A stretch of DNA of 64,000 nucleotides from Sulfurimonas lithotrophica (GCF_009258225.1 NZ_CP043617.1:186001-250000), one strand, 5' to 3'; shown: positions 40,072-46,914, counted from the stretch's first letter. The notes: generated from the letters alone by a model not told the origin. Program-made: numbers and translations.

Positions 40072-40149
40072 CGGGGTGTAGCTCAGTATGGTTAGAGTAC
40101 TTGGTTTGGGACCAAGGGGCCGAAGGTTCGAGTCCTTTCACCCCGACCA
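40072..40149 (+). tRNA. tRNA-Pro (anticodon TGG)
   Basis: A complete cloverleaf with acceptor arm CGGGGTG pairing CACCCCG, a D arm, TTTGGGA anticodon loop read as TGG, the GGTTCGAGTCC T arm and an encoded CCA. It is the first of five closely spaced tRNA genes. Confidence 0.95.
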
Positions 40150-40177
40150 TCTTTTTTTTATGTTTAATAAGACTTAT

Positions 40178-40255
40178 GGTGAGATTAGCTCAGCTGGTTA
40201 GAGCACTGGTTTGTGGTGCCGGGGGTCGCGGGTTCGAATCCCGTATCTCACCCCA
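40178..40255 (+). tRNA. tRNA-His (anticodon GTG)
   Basis: Acceptor arm GGTGAGAT pairs ATCTCACC; this includes the extra 5' G (G-1) typical of tRNA-His. The anticodon loop TTGTGGT gives GTG. A GGTTCGAATCC T arm and an encoded CCA are present. Confidence 0.95.
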
Positions 40256-40303
40256 TAAATTAAATATAAAAAATAAATAATTGAAAATTAATAAATTTTT
40301 GTG

Positions 40304-40380
40304 GCGTCCGTGGCTCAACTGGATAGAGTTTCGGACTTCGGATCCGACGGTTATAGGTTCGAATCCTATCGGGCGCACCA
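40304..40380 (+). tRNA. tRNA-Arg (anticodon TCG)
   Basis: Acceptor arm GCGTCCG pairs CGGGCGC with a G-T pair. The anticodon arm TCGGA-CTTCGGA-TCCGA gives TCG. A standard T arm and CCA end are encoded. Confidence 0.94.
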
Positions 40381-40395
40381 TTTATTTAAATGTAT

Positions 40396-40472
<77 letters not shown>

Positions 40473-40501
40473 CTTTATTTATGTTAAATTCTACGACGTG
40501 C

Positions 40502-40586
40502 GCGGATGTGGTGAAATTGGTAGACACGCCAGACTTAGGATCTGGTGCCGCAAGGTGTGGAGGTTCGAGTCCTCTCATCCGCACCA
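40502..40586 (+). tRNA. tRNA-Leu (anticodon TAG), host of the island insertion
   Basis: Acceptor arm GCGGATG pairs CATCCGC. The anticodon arm CCAGA-CTTAGGA-TCTGG gives TAG. A long variable arm (GTGCCGCAAGGTGTG region) is typical for leucine tRNAs. Its last 17 bases plus the following T recur at 47087-47104, so an island integrated here and left the tRNA intact. Confidence 0.96.
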
Positions 40587-40769: not shown

Positions 40770-41999
40770 TTAATCTGTACAATTACATGGCAAACTATCA
40801 TCATTCGCCTCTAAGCCACTACCCTCTTTAATAACACTGTAAGACAATTTTTTACCTACTCCAAAGAAGTTTATAAAAGGATTTTCTTCTGTAGAAATTT
40901 CTCTACCTTCTGCTTTTAAATCCCTTTGATACTTTTCTTCAATTCTTACCCACCAATCTATATTTTCGGGTGTTATATCATCATTATTAGACTGAATACT
41001 AGATAATTTTGTAGCACCTTTCATAAAACAATATACACAATTTCCAAGACTTCCATCATAAGGTAGACCTAAATCCCATTCTCTACTATCCCAAAAATCT
41101 TTTATATCTTTTTGTTCAACATTGTATTCTACTAATGGTGCATATACATGTTCATTTTTATCCCGTAAATATGCTACTGATATGTTTTCATTAGATTTGT
41201 CGTCAATTCTTTTTTTCATTTTTTCAAGCCTTAATGGCTCATCTGCCCTAAAACCAATTAGACTACAATATTCTACTATTCCTTTCTTTGTATATAGCGG
41301 TTTATTTTCAATTTGAACACTGGTATAGTCTCTAAAATTTTGTGTACTTCTAAATAAATGTCTGTTTAAAGCGTATTCTTTTTTTTCTAAGTAAATTTCT
41401 TTAGGAACACTTCCACCATGCCTCAGATGCTTTTCGTATAGTAAGTTTTTATCTATCCTACTGGACTCTCCAAAATGTCCTAATCTTACAACTGGAACAT
41501 TAAATTCCTTAAATGCAAACCAATCATTTAAAAAGGCAACTGTAGTATCCATTTTCATATTCTTAGTACATGTTCTACCACTTAACAAACTTGGTAAGTA
41601 CCCTTGCCATGAAATTAGCTCTTCAAAAATTTCTCCCTTTGAATGATAACCATTAGGGTTAGTCTCAGAATATGGTTTATTATTTACTAGTTTATAAGTA
41701 GAAAATCTATCATATGTACCATTTCTACAACTTTCATATGTCTGAAACTCAACTAAGAAAAAAGGAATGTTATATTTACTCTCACATCTTCTTTTACATT
41801 CCATCACAAAGTCATATGTCTTATGATGTTCGGCTGATGTATTATTAAAAACAATTACATCTCCCCTATCAGCATCTAACAAACCATTTTCTAATAATGA
41901 AAAAAGTAAAGCTCCACTCGACCTACCACCAGAAAACTTAACTACATGAGGAACTGATTTATGATATTCCTCTACATAATACGATTCAATTTTTATCAT
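40770..41999 (-). CDS. PAPS-reductase-like PP-loop protein with cysteine-rich region (island cargo)
   Basis: The PP-loop KFSGGRSSGALL (residues 21-32) binds ATP and adenylates a substrate in PAPS-reductase and DndC-like families. GFRADEPLR near 249-257 and the Cys pair of GNCVYCFMKG (Cys321, Cys324) with Cys144, Cys405 and Cys407 suggest a bound [4Fe-4S] cluster. At 409 residues it is longer than CysH but near DndC-type sulfurtransferases. It is the last gene of the operon and overlaps the DUF6339-like gene by four bases. It may act on nucleic acid or nucleotides with sulphur chemistry (inference), but no dndABDE-type genes are present. Confidence 0.75.
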   Translation of the reverse strand: MIKIESYYVEEYHKSVPHVVKFSGGRSSGALLFSLLENGLLDADRGDVIVFNNTSAEHHKTYDFVMECKRRCESKYNIPFFLVEFQTYESCRNGTYDRFSTYKLVNNKPYSETNPNGYHSKGEIFEELISWQGYLPSLLSGRTCTKNMKMDTTVAFLNDWFAFKEFNVPVVRLGHFGESSRIDKNLLYEKHLRHGGSVPKEIYLEKKEYALNRHLFRSTQNFRDYTSVQIENKPLYTKKGIVEYCSLIGFRADEPLRLEKMKKRIDDKSNENISVAYLRDKNEHVYAPLVEYNVEQKDIKDFWDSREWDLGLPYDGSLGNCVYCFMKGATKLSSIQSNNDDITPENIDWWVRIEEKYQRDLKAEGREISTEENPFINFFGVGKKLSYSVIKEGSGLEANDDSLPCNCTD

Positions 42000-42823
42000 T
42001 CAATAAGGCTTTGTATAATTTTTTTATTTTCAATCGGACTCAAACTACCCATTCCTCTCCATGTCGACTCAATACCAATTTTTGCGATGATATCTTTAAA
42101 CTTTTGTGTTTTTGTAATTGATTTCTCCATGATATATAAGAAGAAACCATCTCTAATACTCTTATCTGCTACAACTGTTAATTTTCCACTCATACTTTCT
42201 ACTAATGCGTTGTAGTTGGATTTATTTTCACTTAAATAATTATATGTGACTTGTTCTTTTATACCTGTTTCTCTTTCAATTTCTTTAGCTAAATGCATTC
42301 TCCACCAAGCAACTGCAAACGGAACATCTTGCATTATTCCTTTAATCCCTCTATTTCCAATCCATCCAAACATATGCCGCAGAATAGCATTAGATACTTC
42401 AGTTAAACCACTGTTATCTCCATCAGATGAAAGTCTTAAAGCTTCTATAATATTATTTCTCCCATTTTTATTATTTTTAAAAAAAGCTAAAAAGTGTGGT
42501 TCAATAATATCATTTTCAATTAGTTGATATGTGATTGACAACCATTTTATAGGCTTGATAGCATCTATGGAAGTAAAGCTTTGTTTTTGTAATGTTTTCC
42601 ACAGAATAGGACAATGGTATTTTACATGAATTTGCTGAAATTCATCTTCACTTAGTCTTTCTCTAAAAGCTGAAAAGTTTATTTCATTTAGTAAATCATC
42701 TTTGTGAAAATACTCATTTAAATAGGATAAAAACTCTTTTTTTGATAATGCAGATTTTAATAACTTTATAGATTCTTCTTTATTCTTAGTTATTTTTTTT
42801 AACTTTTTTAATGCGTCATTCAT
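41996..42823 (-). CDS. unknown protein, DUF6339-like (island cargo)
   Basis: A 275-residue, mostly helical, soluble protein. The stretch ILRHMFGWIGNRG followed by VPFAVAWWRMHL resembles, from memory, the RG...ARAWWR pattern of DUF6339 proteins; I could not verify this. It overlaps the PAPS-reductase-like gene by four bases and the upstream gene by eight, so the genes are translated together. No catalytic motif is visible. The function is unknown, and the setting suggests a part of a multi-protein defence or modification complex. Confidence 0.6.
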   Translation of the reverse strand: MNDALKKLKKITKNKEESIKLLKSALSKKEFLSYLNEYFHKDDLLNEINFSAFRERLSEDEFQQIHVKYHCPILWKTLQKQSFTSIDAIKPIKWLSITYQLIENDIIEPHFLAFFKNNKNGRNNIIEALRLSSDGDNSGLTEVSNAILRHMFGWIGNRGIKGIMQDVPFAVAWWRMHLAKEIERETGIKEQVTYNYLSENKSNYNALVESMSGKLTVVADKSIRDGFFLYIMEKSITKTQKFKDIIAKIGIESTWRGMGSLSPIENKKIIQSLIE

Positions 42824-43652
42824 TATCTTCTCCTACTGGTAAAATATGAGGTAAAAAGTAACAAGCTACTTTATTTGGGTCAAACTCATCCTTATCTTTC
42901 CAAGTTTTTAAACCAACTTGTTCTAATTGAAATTCGATACCTTTAAAATTGGTATAACTATCAAAATCTCCACTTCTATATTGCTTTTCTAATTCCATAA
43001 AGCCTACACATAATATATGCGTTATTATGCTTCTCCTATGAGCATCTCTATTAGAAGCTCTTTGCATTGATTCAAATAATGTTGGTTCCATATTTGCGAT
43101 AAACTTTCCACCTTCATCAGAATCTAAACTTACATCGAAACTATATTTAACATTTTCATTCTTTTGAATCGTCAATAAATCACTTGCTGTACTTTCTAAT
43201 TCTCTCCAGCCATCTCTAGCAATTATAGAACCTTTTAAAAGTTGAATTGATACACCATCCCAAAATCCATCTAAACCCATTTTTTGCGATTCTAGAGTTA
43301 TCTCTCTATCTTCTCCAATATAAACAATGCCACAAAAAAAACTTTGAGTTTCAAAGGTTGTTTGTAATGGTATTTTTTGCTTAACATGCAAAGGATTTCC
43401 ATTAATCTTTTCCGCTTCATCTATGGTTTCTCTATACATTGAAGATTTCAAAACAACAGTTGTAATAAATTTTGCCTCTCCTGATTCAATCAATTGTGTA
43501 ATTAAATTATTTCCACTTATCTTATGTTCTAAAACAATATAATTACTTCTTTCAACATCTAATTGGGATACTTCATACAAACAATCTTCATTGTAATCAT
43601 ATCTATCTGCTTCTAAAACTGGAAAAGAATAAGAATTCGTTAATGTATTCAT
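42816..43652 (-). CDS. unknown protein (island cargo)
   Basis: A 278-residue soluble protein I cannot assign to a family. It has beta-rich N-terminal segments and a C-terminal half with alternating charged helices; conspicuous stretches are GLDGFWDGVSIQLLKG and MEPTLFESMQRASNRDAHRR. No membrane helix or known catalytic motif is visible. It lies between the GHKL ATPase gene, which it overlaps by four bases, and the DUF6339-like gene. It may be a structural or specificity subunit. Confidence 0.6.
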   Translation of the reverse strand: MNTLTNSYSFPVLEADRYDYNEDCLYEVSQLDVERSNYIVLEHKISGNNLITQLIESGEAKFITTVVLKSSMYRETIDEAEKINGNPLHVKQKIPLQTTFETQSFFCGIVYIGEDREITLESQKMGLDGFWDGVSIQLLKGSIIARDGWRELESTASDLLTIQKNENVKYSFDVSLDSDEGGKFIANMEPTLFESMQRASNRDAHRRSIITHILCVGFMELEKQYRSGDFDSYTNFKGIEFQLEQVGLKTWKDKDEFDPNKVACYFLPHILPVGEDNE

Positions 43653-45508
43653 TTGCTATCCTTTTTTAATGCACTATTCAAAAATTCATAATCAATAGAG
43701 TAATTACCTTTAATATTTGTTTCATAATCTATCACTAAATCTAAATATTCCCCTCTATCTACTTTACCTACATCAACCGTATCATTATTAATAACTTGAC
43801 ATTTCTTCCCATTACAATATGTATCTTTTATTATTAATCTTTCTGACATACTATAGGTATCACACGTTGGGTCAGTTCCATCATCTAACCTTAGAGACAA
43901 TAGAAGGTTTGTAGCATTTTTATCCATAGTAAACTTCACATATGCCTGCTGTTTTTTTGGATTGTGGCGTGTTCCCATTTTCCCTACTCCATCAAATGGG
44001 TTTCCTACTCTTCTTTTTTCCTGACTCTTTTCCTTTACCCCCTTACCATCTTCTACTTTCCCTGAACCACCATCAACAGCTATTTTCTTTGCCTTAACTT
44101 TGGTAACCTTTGGAGCTTTTCTTTCATTCTTCCTTTTTGCTTTTGCGTCTCCAATCATAGGGATTGATAGTTCTGGAATACTTACATCAAAAGAATCACT
44201 ATCGTTTTTATCTATTATCGACATTAAAAATGATTTAACTTCTTCTAATGCACTTTGAAGTCTTTTTCTTTTTTCTTTACCTGATTTATCATTAGGAAAC
44301 CTATTTAGCTTTAAATCCATATGTAGATTTCCTTCTGCTCCTTTAATTAAAGCTGATAACTCAGTATCTCGTTGTGGTAGAATCAATGCACTAAATGGTT
44401 TATTTCCACTAAAAGAACCCACGTTCAATGGTGTTGGTATTGAATCATTAATCCACATACCATTTCGACAAAGTGCTAACTTTGTATTGGTGTCAGATTC
44501 TAAATAATAAACTTTTACATCCCCTTCTTTCGTTGCTATTAGCTGTTGATGTCCTTTATACAACAGTTTATAAAACCTTTCAGATGTTTGATATATAGGA
44601 TTACTTTTTTCATTTTTAGTTTCGTGAAATATTCTTTCTAAACTATCCTCATTTATAGATACTAAATCATCATCCCATACTATATCTACTTTCAAATGCT
44701 TCTCTGAAATAGCAACAAAAAAATTCCTTATTATTGAACTTGACATTAAATTCAAAATAGCTTCTTTTTCAGGATTTTCCTTACCAAAGAAGTTGAATCC
44801 AACCATTGCTACAACTGCTCCAGAACCTTCAAGATGGGATAACTCTTTTGAAATTATATTTGGTATTAACCCATCTTTTAAAAAGATGTCATTCTCTTCT
44901 ATAATTGGTTCATCTTCTGTCCTTAAAAAACCAGCCCCATTTTTTAAAGTTCCATCATTTCTGTGAGTTCGTAAAAGTGCTTGACCTGAACAAATTATTT
45001 GTCCATCATCTGATTTTCCACCGTAAAGAACATATCGTAAATTAGATATATTAAATGCTGAAAAGTGCCCATTACCATATGAACCACCTGAATTCATTGG
45101 GTCACTTTTTTTACTAATGCCATCACTCAATATACTTACTAAAGTTTCTTGATTAAATCCTATACCGTTATCTATAACATACATAATCGGTATTGTGTCT
45201 TTTGAGAGCTCTTCCTGAATAGCAGACAAAATGTTTTCTTCTTGGCTGGATAGCTCTTCTTTTTCGATTGCTTCAATCGCATCATTGTATTCAGAAATAC
45301 CAGGTATCTCACTTTTATTTATAGTATCAATGACAATCTTTACTTGAGCTTCTTTTTTCTTTGCATCGTCAATTGCTGAATCAAAAGAGTTCTGTAATAA
45401 TTCGCGAATAATAACGGAAGCATCTTTATCGTTTGATGCTGATATAGACGCATTTGTTAATCCACTTTGGCTATCTGCTCTACTAAAAATTAATTTTCCA
45501 CTATCCAT
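43649..45508 (-). CDS. GHKL-fold ATPase (Hsp90/MutL-like) (island cargo)
   Basis: The 619-residue protein has the Bergerat ATP fold: N-box IRELLQNSFDS with Glu36 and Asn40, the D-box IDNGIGF with Asp113, and GGSYGNGHFSAF near 141-152. The middle part is beta-rich and a long basic, lysine-rich linker (about 470-525) precedes a small C-terminal beta domain. GHKL ATPases in defence systems dimerise on ATP binding and can sense DNA ends or act as switches (family knowledge); here the role is not known. It lies 11 bases after a small gene and overlaps the next gene by four bases. Confidence 0.8.
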   Translation of the reverse strand: MDSGKLIFSRADSQSGLTNASISASNDKDASVIIRELLQNSFDSAIDDAKKKEAQVKIVIDTINKSEIPGISEYNDAIEAIEKEELSSQEENILSAIQEELSKDTIPIMYVIDNGIGFNQETLVSILSDGISKKSDPMNSGGSYGNGHFSAFNISNLRYVLYGGKSDDGQIICSGQALLRTHRNDGTLKNGAGFLRTEDEPIIEENDIFLKDGLIPNIISKELSHLEGSGAVVAMVGFNFFGKENPEKEAILNLMSSSIIRNFFVAISEKHLKVDIVWDDDLVSINEDSLERIFHETKNEKSNPIYQTSERFYKLLYKGHQQLIATKEGDVKVYYLESDTNTKLALCRNGMWINDSIPTPLNVGSFSGNKPFSALILPQRDTELSALIKGAEGNLHMDLKLNRFPNDKSGKEKRKRLQSALEEVKSFLMSIIDKNDSDSFDVSIPELSIPMIGDAKAKRKNERKAPKVTKVKAKKIAVDGGSGKVEDGKGVKEKSQEKRRVGNPFDGVGKMGTRHNPKKQQAYVKFTMDKNATNLLLSLRLDDGTDPTCDTYSMSERLIIKDTYCNGKKCQVINNDTVDVGKVDRGEYLDLVIDYETNIKGNYSIDYEFLNSALKKDSK

Positions 45509-45519
45509 AAATTTCCTTT

Positions 45520-45738
45520 TTAAAATTTGAAATCAAACATATCATCTTTGCTTGATGATTCAAATCTTTTTTTTACATTTTTCACTGCATCTTCTAAAGA
45601 AGTAATAATTTTCTTTACTTCTTTATCCGTATATTCATAGTTGTTTTTATTACTTAAATTACCAACCAAGTGAATCATATGCAAGGCCTTTTGCATTCGT
45701 GATTCTGCTAATGATATAAACTTTTCTTTTTTACTCAT
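45520..45738 (-). CDS. small helical protein, first gene of the island operon
   Basis: A 72-residue charged, probably all-helical protein (SKKEKFISLAESRMQKALHM at the start). An AGAGG ribosome site precedes the ATG. It is only 11 bases before the GHKL ATPase gene, so it is co-transcribed. No family is recognised. It could be a regulator or a small subunit of the system. Confidence 0.6.
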   Translation of the reverse strand: MSKKEKFISLAESRMQKALHMIHLVGNLSNKNNYEYTDKEVKKIITSLEDAVKNVKKRFESSSKDDMFDFKF

Positions 45739-45913: not shown

Positions 45914-46165
45914 GTGTTTAATTTGCAACATATATTGTTTAATCAAATATTTAGTCTCCAAAAACAGAATAATTTCCTCAATAACTTCTTCTTTCAGAGG
46001 TTGTTTATTGATAAATTAGATTATTATTCAACAAAGTTAAAAGCTAAAAAATCTCGCTTAGTAGGTGCATCAATATATCTTACTCATGAGGCAATTCAAA
46101 AAGATTTAGATGGTAGGATTGAAAAGTTGATGAAAGTATTCGTCATCAATGACGGAAGTGACTAA
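45914..46165 (+). CDS. uncertain small open frame, convergent with fic
   Basis: An 83-residue frame with a GTG start and no good ribosome site; it overlaps the fic gene end by four bases. The C-terminal half (LKAKKSRLVGASIYL) has normal-looking composition, while the N-terminal half is rich in Phe, Asn and Gln, as expected of translated AT-rich noise. It could be a remnant of a longer gene or no gene at all. Confidence 0.25.
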   Translation: MFNLQHILFNQIFSLQKQNNFLNNFFFQRLFIDKLDYYSTKLKAKKSRLVGASIYLTHEAIQKDLDGRIEKLMKVFVINDGSD

Positions 46166-46779
46166 GTTTCCGCTTTTTTTAATCCATTGGAGATAATGAT
46201 TTTCATCTTATCACAATCAGCTTCCATACAATCAATAGAAGCGGTAATAAAATCATTGTTTTGTAAAGTTTGTTGATAATCGATATATTCATATCCATTA
46301 TAGGTAACAATCATATCAAAGAAAAGTCTGAGAGACCGTCCATTGCCTTCATTAAATGGGTGTAGAACTATCAATTCACACATATAATAAGAGAGTTTTT
46401 GAGCAAATTCATCTTTTTTTGAAACATCTTCAAAGTCTCTTAGGTAGTTATCATTTTTGAGTTTTGTAAATATCTCTTTTGAGAATGTGTCTAGGTTCAT
46501 GTATGGGCAGAACATACTCTCACTCTTAGAAATATTTACACTTCTGTATTGCCCACCCCATTCAAATAATGATGAAAATATTGAACGATGAATTTTACAA
46601 AGATACACTTCATCAAAAACTGTATTTTCATCTAGTTCATTGTGAAGCTGGTGATAGGCTTCAACTAAAAGCTCTTTTTCAATCTCTGTGATAACTTCTA
46701 AATCTTTGATGTTGAGTTTATTGATTGGAACATCACTATCTTCATAGTAGATGTGGTTTGATGGCGGGTAGTATTTCAT
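46162..46779 (-). CDS. Fic-domain protein (AMP-transferase-type toxin)
   Basis: The Fic core motif HPFNEGNGRSLR, with the catalytic His140, spans residues 140-151, preceded by a helical domain. At 205 residues it is a minimal Fic protein. Fic enzymes attach AMP or other groups to target proteins, often as toxins. A 44-residue gene with the inhibitory S-xxx-E-G motif lies directly upstream, and its stop abuts the fic ATG, which is the known type of FicTA pair. It sits inside the island, next to the defence-like operon. Confidence 0.88.
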   Translation of the reverse strand: MKYYPPSNHIYYEDSDVPINKLNIKDLEVITEIEKELLVEAYHQLHNELDENTVFDEVYLCKIHRSIFSSLFEWGGQYRSVNISKSESMFCPYMNLDTFSKEIFTKLKNDNYLRDFEDVSKKDEFAQKLSYYMCELIVLHPFNEGNGRSLRLFFDMIVTYNGYEYIDYQQTLQNNDFITASIDCMEADCDKMKIIISNGLKKAET

Positions 46780-46914
46780 TTATTTTAATAGAGAAAGATA
46801 CTGTTTAACTTTTTTCAATACTTCTTTATCTTTAGACGGTTTGTAACCCTCTATTTGATTTGATACAGTAGCAGTTTTGATGGCTTTTTGTTGTGAATAC
46901 GGTGGTTTACTCAT
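46780..46914 (-). CDS. small Fic antitoxin (class I-type inhibitory helix)
   Basis: Reading the minus strand from the ATG at 46914-46912 gives a 44-residue protein. It has SNQIEG, which fits the Fic-inhibitory motif [S/T]xxxE[G/N] with Ser18, Glu22 and Gly23. An AGGAG ribosome site precedes it, and its TAA touches the fic ATG. Such short antitoxins block the Fic ATP site by placing the Glu against the nucleotide. The gene is easily missed because of its length. Confidence 0.8.
   Translation of the reverse strand: MSKPPYSQQKAIKTATVSNQIEGYKPSKDKEVLKKVKQYLSLLK

Follow-up and report, generated by a model that had tools for sequence, protein, structure and literature searches.

We suggest that the A-B-C-P genes of Sulfurimonas lithotrophica form a defence-type module, in which a GHKL ATPase complex of the kind that accompanies restriction-modification (RM) systems might have had its methyltransferase partner replaced by P, a PAPS-reductase-like enzyme acting as a DNA marker; we put the probability of this reading at about 0.4. 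The set is only partly described: the pair of A and B, catalogued in PADLOC as PDC-M33, and the link with RM genes were known, and the P-linked form is new. The original prediction had taken the whole set for undescribed, which is correct for A-B-C-P together, a set without a name, but not for A and B.

The operon consists of five ORFs on the minus strand of the window, i.e. the whole 64,000-nt stretch analysed (GCF_009258225.1, NZ_CP043617.1:186001-250000), within which all positions are counted. In the order S-A-B-C-P these are:

45520..45738, minus strand: S, small helical protein of 72 aa, first gene of the operon; 78% identical in the Sulfurovum contig L018
43649..45508, minus strand: A, GHKL ATPase of 619 aa, PDC-M33A-like (PADLOC PDC-M33A, 2.3e-37); found in five genomes
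42816..43652, minus strand: B, PDC-M33B-like protein of 278 aa (PADLOC PDC-M33B, 1.2e-9)
41996..42823, minus strand: C, diverged DUF6339 homologue of 275 aa, predicted all helical (profile comparison)
40770..41999, minus strand: P, PAPS-reductase-like PP-loop enzyme of 409 aa (phrog_424, 9e-28; Pfam PAPS_reduct, 0.0072, under the cut-off)

S and A are separated by 11 bases, and the following junctions are overlaps of 4, 8 and 4 bases. The coordinates and gaps on which the five genes had been claimed as one unit were reproduced exactly, and their order recurs in other genomes; the G+C content of the operon is 30.3%, against 33.2% for the window. The unit is real and the chance of a spurious one is negligible, because L018, a contig of a Sulfurovum MAG, repeats all five genes in order (junctions +13, -4, -8 and -4; identities to the window's S, A, B, C and P of 78, 54, 54, 52 and 75%), and three genomes repeat genes 2-5.

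Searches with the single A and P proteins in 249 genomes of the same phylum matched only the genome of the window, and the relatives emerged with profiles. The P profile, run against 397 genomes of the phylum of L018, found full-length P in four (the genome of L018, G553, G587 and G653), plus one spurious weak match, and in all four cases P closes the A-B-C-P order. Beyond the sampled phylum, 398 genomes from the phylum of a Pseudomonas locus gave only weak partial matches to P, and the P and C profiles had no match among viral contigs. Across the five genomes, including that of the window, the A-B-C-P order is kept down to identities of 35, 27, 30 and 48% for A, B, C and P, respectively, with overlaps of 1-14 bases at nearly all junctions and one 21-base gap; the homologues thus recur as a set in four other genomes rather than singly in unrelated contexts. 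S was not found in three of the five P-linked loci (L164-L166), which leaves four genes, A-B-C-P, as the core. A core of five genes was rejected, as S is present at only two of the five loci; in the five-gene set claimed at the outset A-B-C-P is conserved, but S is optional and is common to several other GHKL operons.

Directly past the 3' end of the operon lie five tRNA genes (Pro, His, Arg, Arg and Leu; 40072-40586), with tRNA-Leu(TAG) at 40502-40586. Its 3' end recurs in a congener (G250) as a 58-base repeat at a distance of about 30 kb, next to an integrase-like ORF; on this evidence, tRNA-Leu(TAG) serves the genus as an integration hotspot. Congeners carry different cargo at tRNA-Leu, including an AbiE-like pair in G239. 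The genome of the window has one copy of the tRNA-Leu 3' repeat and no second att copy, so the borders of an island cannot be drawn; the tRNA-borne island predicted earlier therefore holds as regards the position of the operon at a tRNA integration site, but not as regards defined ends. A Fic toxin gene (46162-46779; Pfam, 1e-15; PADLOC PDC-S04, 1.7e-52) is located upstream of the operon, preceded by a 44-aa ORF (46780-46914) with the SxxxIEG-type antitoxin-like motif SNQIEGY, and the toxin pair said to lie beside the operon is thus real. A convergent 83-aa ORF is predicted at 45914-46165. The neighbours of A-B-C-P differ in each of the five genomes: the operon of L018 is adjoined by AbiE genes and an integrase-like ORF, one copy shares four bases with a rimP-like ORF upstream of it, and three of the five copies are found among housekeeping rather than defence genes, which tempers the argument from a defence island.

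As judged from its motifs, A keeps an intact GHKL ATP-binding site, i.e. the N-box ELLQNSFD (residues 36-43; 45380..45403, minus strand), the DxGxG motif DNGIG (residues 113-117; 45158..45172, minus strand) and the GxxGxG-type ATP-lid motif GGSYGNG (residues 141-147; 45068..45088, minus strand). E36, Q39, N40 and D43 are invariant in the five P-linked A proteins (E36, Q39 and D43 are also present in A2), and D113, G117, G142, G145 and G147 are likewise invariant. Pfam returned weak matches of A to sacsin and HATPase_c. The matches to PDC-M33A and PDC-M33B lie side by side, in that order, in the window, where the two genes overlap by 4 bases, and in L018, L164 and L166. PDC-M33 is a predicted phage defence candidate in PADLOC, not a validated system, and a literature search found no paper naming it.

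A, B and S had no matches among the sequences of solved structures. The AF2 model of B (pLDDT 83) comprises a beta-rich domain and a helical C-terminus, and a fold search with it returned low-TM beta sandwiches, mostly antibody domains, uninformative on function. The window's C alone had no significant match and no Pfam match to DUF6339. The profile of the five-member C family, however, matched the DUF6339 proteins of related operons (E 3.4e-6, probability 88%, colinear over residues 72-275), against a probability of 0.1% for an unrelated control profile, and the C homologue of one P-linked locus matches PF19866 at 6.6e-5. At the family level, these profiles make C a diverged homologue of DUF6339; its AF2 model (pLDDT 46) was too poor for use. 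The two middle proteins, unassigned in the original prediction, thus both have relatives, B through PDC-M33B and C through DUF6339.

The wider family of these operons was reached through S. A scan of 84,980 species genomes for S-like proteins gave 226 loci, and among the best 80 of the 226, together with plasmid loci, the gene after S defines three main groups: group I (44 loci) has M33-type A followed by B-like and DUF6339-like genes, group II (27 loci) has another GHKL protein of about 621 aa, and group III (10 loci) has a GHKL protein of about 840 aa. Within the flanks searched, a C5-methyltransferase is located near 37 of the 44 group I loci and a Vsr-like gene near 19, whereas none of the 27 group II loci has a C5-methyltransferase (Fisher p 2e-13 for the methyltransferase contrast, treating as independent loci that are not). 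The methyltransferase motifs PC, ENV and QxRxR are invariant in 36 aligned proteins, and the plasmid records name cytosine methyltransferases. Dam-like ORFs, read from the sequence, adjoin two group I loci (L083 and L097), one parent locus carries a MutH/Sau3AI-type nuclease, and the A-B-C module without S is also found beside type I or other RM genes. By its neighbours, i.e. methyltransferase, Vsr and other RM genes, A-B-C is a widespread RM companion present in dozens of genomes. This agrees with Iyer et al. 2008 (PMC2292703), who describe paraMORC/MORC GHKL ATPase genes that occur sporadically, have moved horizontally and have C5-methyltransferases, Vsr and type II nucleases in their vicinity; A-B-C is paraMORC-like in this sense. 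On an Arthrobacter plasmid, S-A-B-DUF6339 is followed by a Shedu nuclease gene (L004:11625-12770), and a Shedu protein of Vibrio cholerae has a GHKL domain of its own (PMC12137116).

The presence of Vsr at 19 of the 44 parent loci and of a MutH/Sau3AI-type nuclease at one, the kinship of the GHKL family to MutL and the three P-linked copies among housekeeping genes would also suit a function in DNA maintenance instead of defence, with a MutL-like A-B-C clamp and a sulfur/redox enzyme taking part in repair or replication quality control. We consider this quite unlikely in view of the patchy distribution (one of 249 and four of 397 genomes), the mobile-element site, the AbiE or Fic genes that adjoin two of the copies, and the cataloguing of PDC-M33 as a defence candidate. 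A defence role of A-B-C-P, as far as gene content and context can tell, seems reasonably probable.

In a tree of 49 A proteins, the five P-linked ones form one clade (support 100/100) inside the RM-associated family, and no methyltransferase adjoins any of the five P-linked operons. The genomes of the window and of G587 have no C5-methyltransferase anywhere; the three other P-linked genomes have such genes elsewhere, that of G653 being about 6.7 kb off, past housekeeping genes. On the tree and the gene neighbourhoods, P occupies the place of the methyltransferase in the P-linked clade and does so through a single origin; as the swap is one evolutionary event, the absence of a methyltransferase counts only once. 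In type 4 BREX, the methyltransferase is likewise replaced by a PAPS reductase for phosphorothioation (PMC12839542), and it is mainly because of this parallel that we read P as a possible DNA-marking enzyme.

The same association with RM genes, together with the place of P in the PAPS reductase superfamily, would fit A-B-C being a regulator or an anti-self-restriction guard left from an RM system, into whose operon a metabolic PAPS/APS reductase had drifted. This seems very unlikely, as P is always the last gene and overlaps C in five of five genomes, down to 46-48% identity; moreover, a standard gene of the PAPS_reduct family (185 bits) is present elsewhere in the host, and P itself falls under the Pfam cut-off.

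P contains the PP-loop SGGRSS (residues 23-28; 41916..41933, minus strand), of which S23, G24, G25, R26 and S28 are invariant in the five P proteins, and the motif CVYC (residues 321-324; 41028..41039, minus strand). C144, C321 and C324 are invariant in the five P proteins and in seven phage/plasmid relatives, making C144 and CVYC a possible Fe-S or sulfur-transfer site that may hold an Fe-S cluster; a GxRxDE motif is invariant across bacterial and phage P relatives. The PADLOC models nearest to P are BrxP and SspD, both PAPS-reductase-like enzymes from systems of the phosphorothioation type. Four of the five P proteins match BrxP (best 1.7e-7) and two match SspD (best 2.4e-7), with the window's P reaching BrxP at 6e-5 in the PP-loop region only. 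This ranking is biased, because PADLOC contains defence proteins only; APS/PAPS reductases and other PAPS-type models are likewise among the distant matches of P. P alone, or with the P of L018, had no match among solved structures, and a profile including the phage relatives resembled PDB 21fy 'PptA' (3.6e-12) in an alignment that pairs the cysteine and NCxxC sites; a literature search found nothing on the function of PptA.

The phage relatives (L150-L154) are small PAPS-reductase-type genes matching SspD at 1e-13, some of them located by primase, SSB or methyltransferase genes, and their products may modify phage DNA. Their partner genes had no match among solved chains.

We hypothesize that P would use ATP and sulfur to mark host DNA with a backbone phosphorothioate or a thiolated base, the sulfur coming probably from a housekeeping cysteine desulfurase via the conserved cysteines of P. 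A dimer of A, with B and C, would close round DNA in an ATP-dependent, MutL-like manner and distinguish marked from unmarked molecules. Where phage or plasmid DNA carries no mark, the A-B-C complex would block replication or recruit a host nuclease; recruitment is proposed because no recognisable nuclease is encoded in the operon (Pfam, PADLOC and phrog matches). Sensing or gating by A and modification of DNA by P, as first proposed, are plausible predictions. The marking of DNA by P is drawn from context and distant homology, and we hold it tentatively, at somewhat less than even odds. Phosphorothioation systems need DndD/DndE- or SspB/SspC-type partners; the operon has no counterpart of either, and P resembles BrxP and SspD weakly, in the window protein mostly over the PP-loop; both points speak against DNA marking. 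The fuller proposal is of a new type of defence that marks DNA with sulfur, where a GHKL complex with DUF6339, instead of DndDE, SspBC or BREX proteins, partners a thiolating P, and where the change from methyl to sulfur was independent of type 4 BREX; it might hold, but we regard it as rather doubtful.

The lack of a nuclease, which implies that some gene of the operon must act, can also be explained by P being the effector: the GHKL complex would sense infection or foreign DNA and activate P, which as a PP-loop ATP pyrophosphatase would use up a nucleotide or modify tRNA or some other part of the cell, leading to growth arrest. PP-loop ATPases also have uses beyond sulfur metabolism (PMC11437467), and a stretch of P at about residues 159-240, missing from the phage relatives, could regulate it. 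On the other hand, the parent module partners DNA-modifying enzymes rather than toxins, the phage relatives of P occur among DNA replication and methylation genes, and the operon persists amid housekeeping genes, once overlapping a rimP-like ORF. We consider this role unlikely, and retain P as the putative DNA marker.

S itself, for which no fitting Pfam family was found, is often the conserved first gene of GHKL operons, and in the window and loci L010-L097 it precedes at least five different-looking GHKL proteins (the M33A type, the 621-aa and 840-aa proteins, and those of L014, L033 and L051). S proteins of about 75 aa are 40-50% identical across phyla, against 20-25% for their GHKL partners, and since S is so much better conserved than these, its sequence suggests that it binds a conserved host factor. 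As S occurs in several different GHKL operons, defence ATPases of the MORC/MutL-like kind in prokaryotes might commonly have it as a partner, so far unstudied. At alphaproteobacterial-plasmid loci L010, L012, L034 and L037, the 621-aa GHKL gene precedes genes for an AAA/OLD-like ATPase and for a UvrD-like helicase, as annotated for L010 and L012, with no methyltransferases. At L036, L039, L042, L053, L066 and L086, the gene next to the 840-aa GHKL gene is convergent with it, encodes about 410 aa and resembles an N4/N6 DNA methyltransferase.

Among known systems, PDC-M33 is the closest in gene content to the A and B pair, sharing adjacent M33A and M33B homologues, but C and P match no M33 model. 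If P marks DNA, PDC-M33 would gain a testable function, and the methyltransferase-linked and P-linked forms of one complex could be compared. The operon resembles the paraMORC/MORC group in having a GHKL ATPase of a family found by RM genes, and differs in that P-linked operons have no methyltransferase, helicase or RM nuclease; a PAPS-reductase-like partner is not described in the part of PMC2292703 consulted. Membership of mza/Tiamat was rejected, as there is no Z1, AIPR or TmtA-size protein, and the match to TmtA (6e-4) covers the ATPase motif only.

Pfam and PADLOC detected no PglZ, DndB/D/E, helicase or methylase in the operon, and with the motifs described above they bear out the predicted combination of a GHKL ATPase and a PAPS-reductase-like enzyme in the absence of these proteins. 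Membership of Dnd, Ssp and type 4 BREX was rejected on gene content. There is no match to DndB, DndD or DndE, and the desulfurase of Dnd and Ssp is not in the operon. The P family and its phage relatives (1e-13) share the SspD match with Ssp, but the operon lacks SspB, SspC and SspE. With type 4 BREX it shares a PAPS-reductase-like enzyme where relatives carry a methyltransferase, and it differs from it in having no PglZ, BrxC, BrxL or BrxHII (PADLOC), in using a GHKL ATPase instead of BrxC and in a P without a DUF4007 fusion. Should P mark DNA, the operon would represent the second independent methyl-to-sulfur swap in methylation-linked defence, after that of type 4 BREX, and the first known to us that is driven by a GHKL protein.
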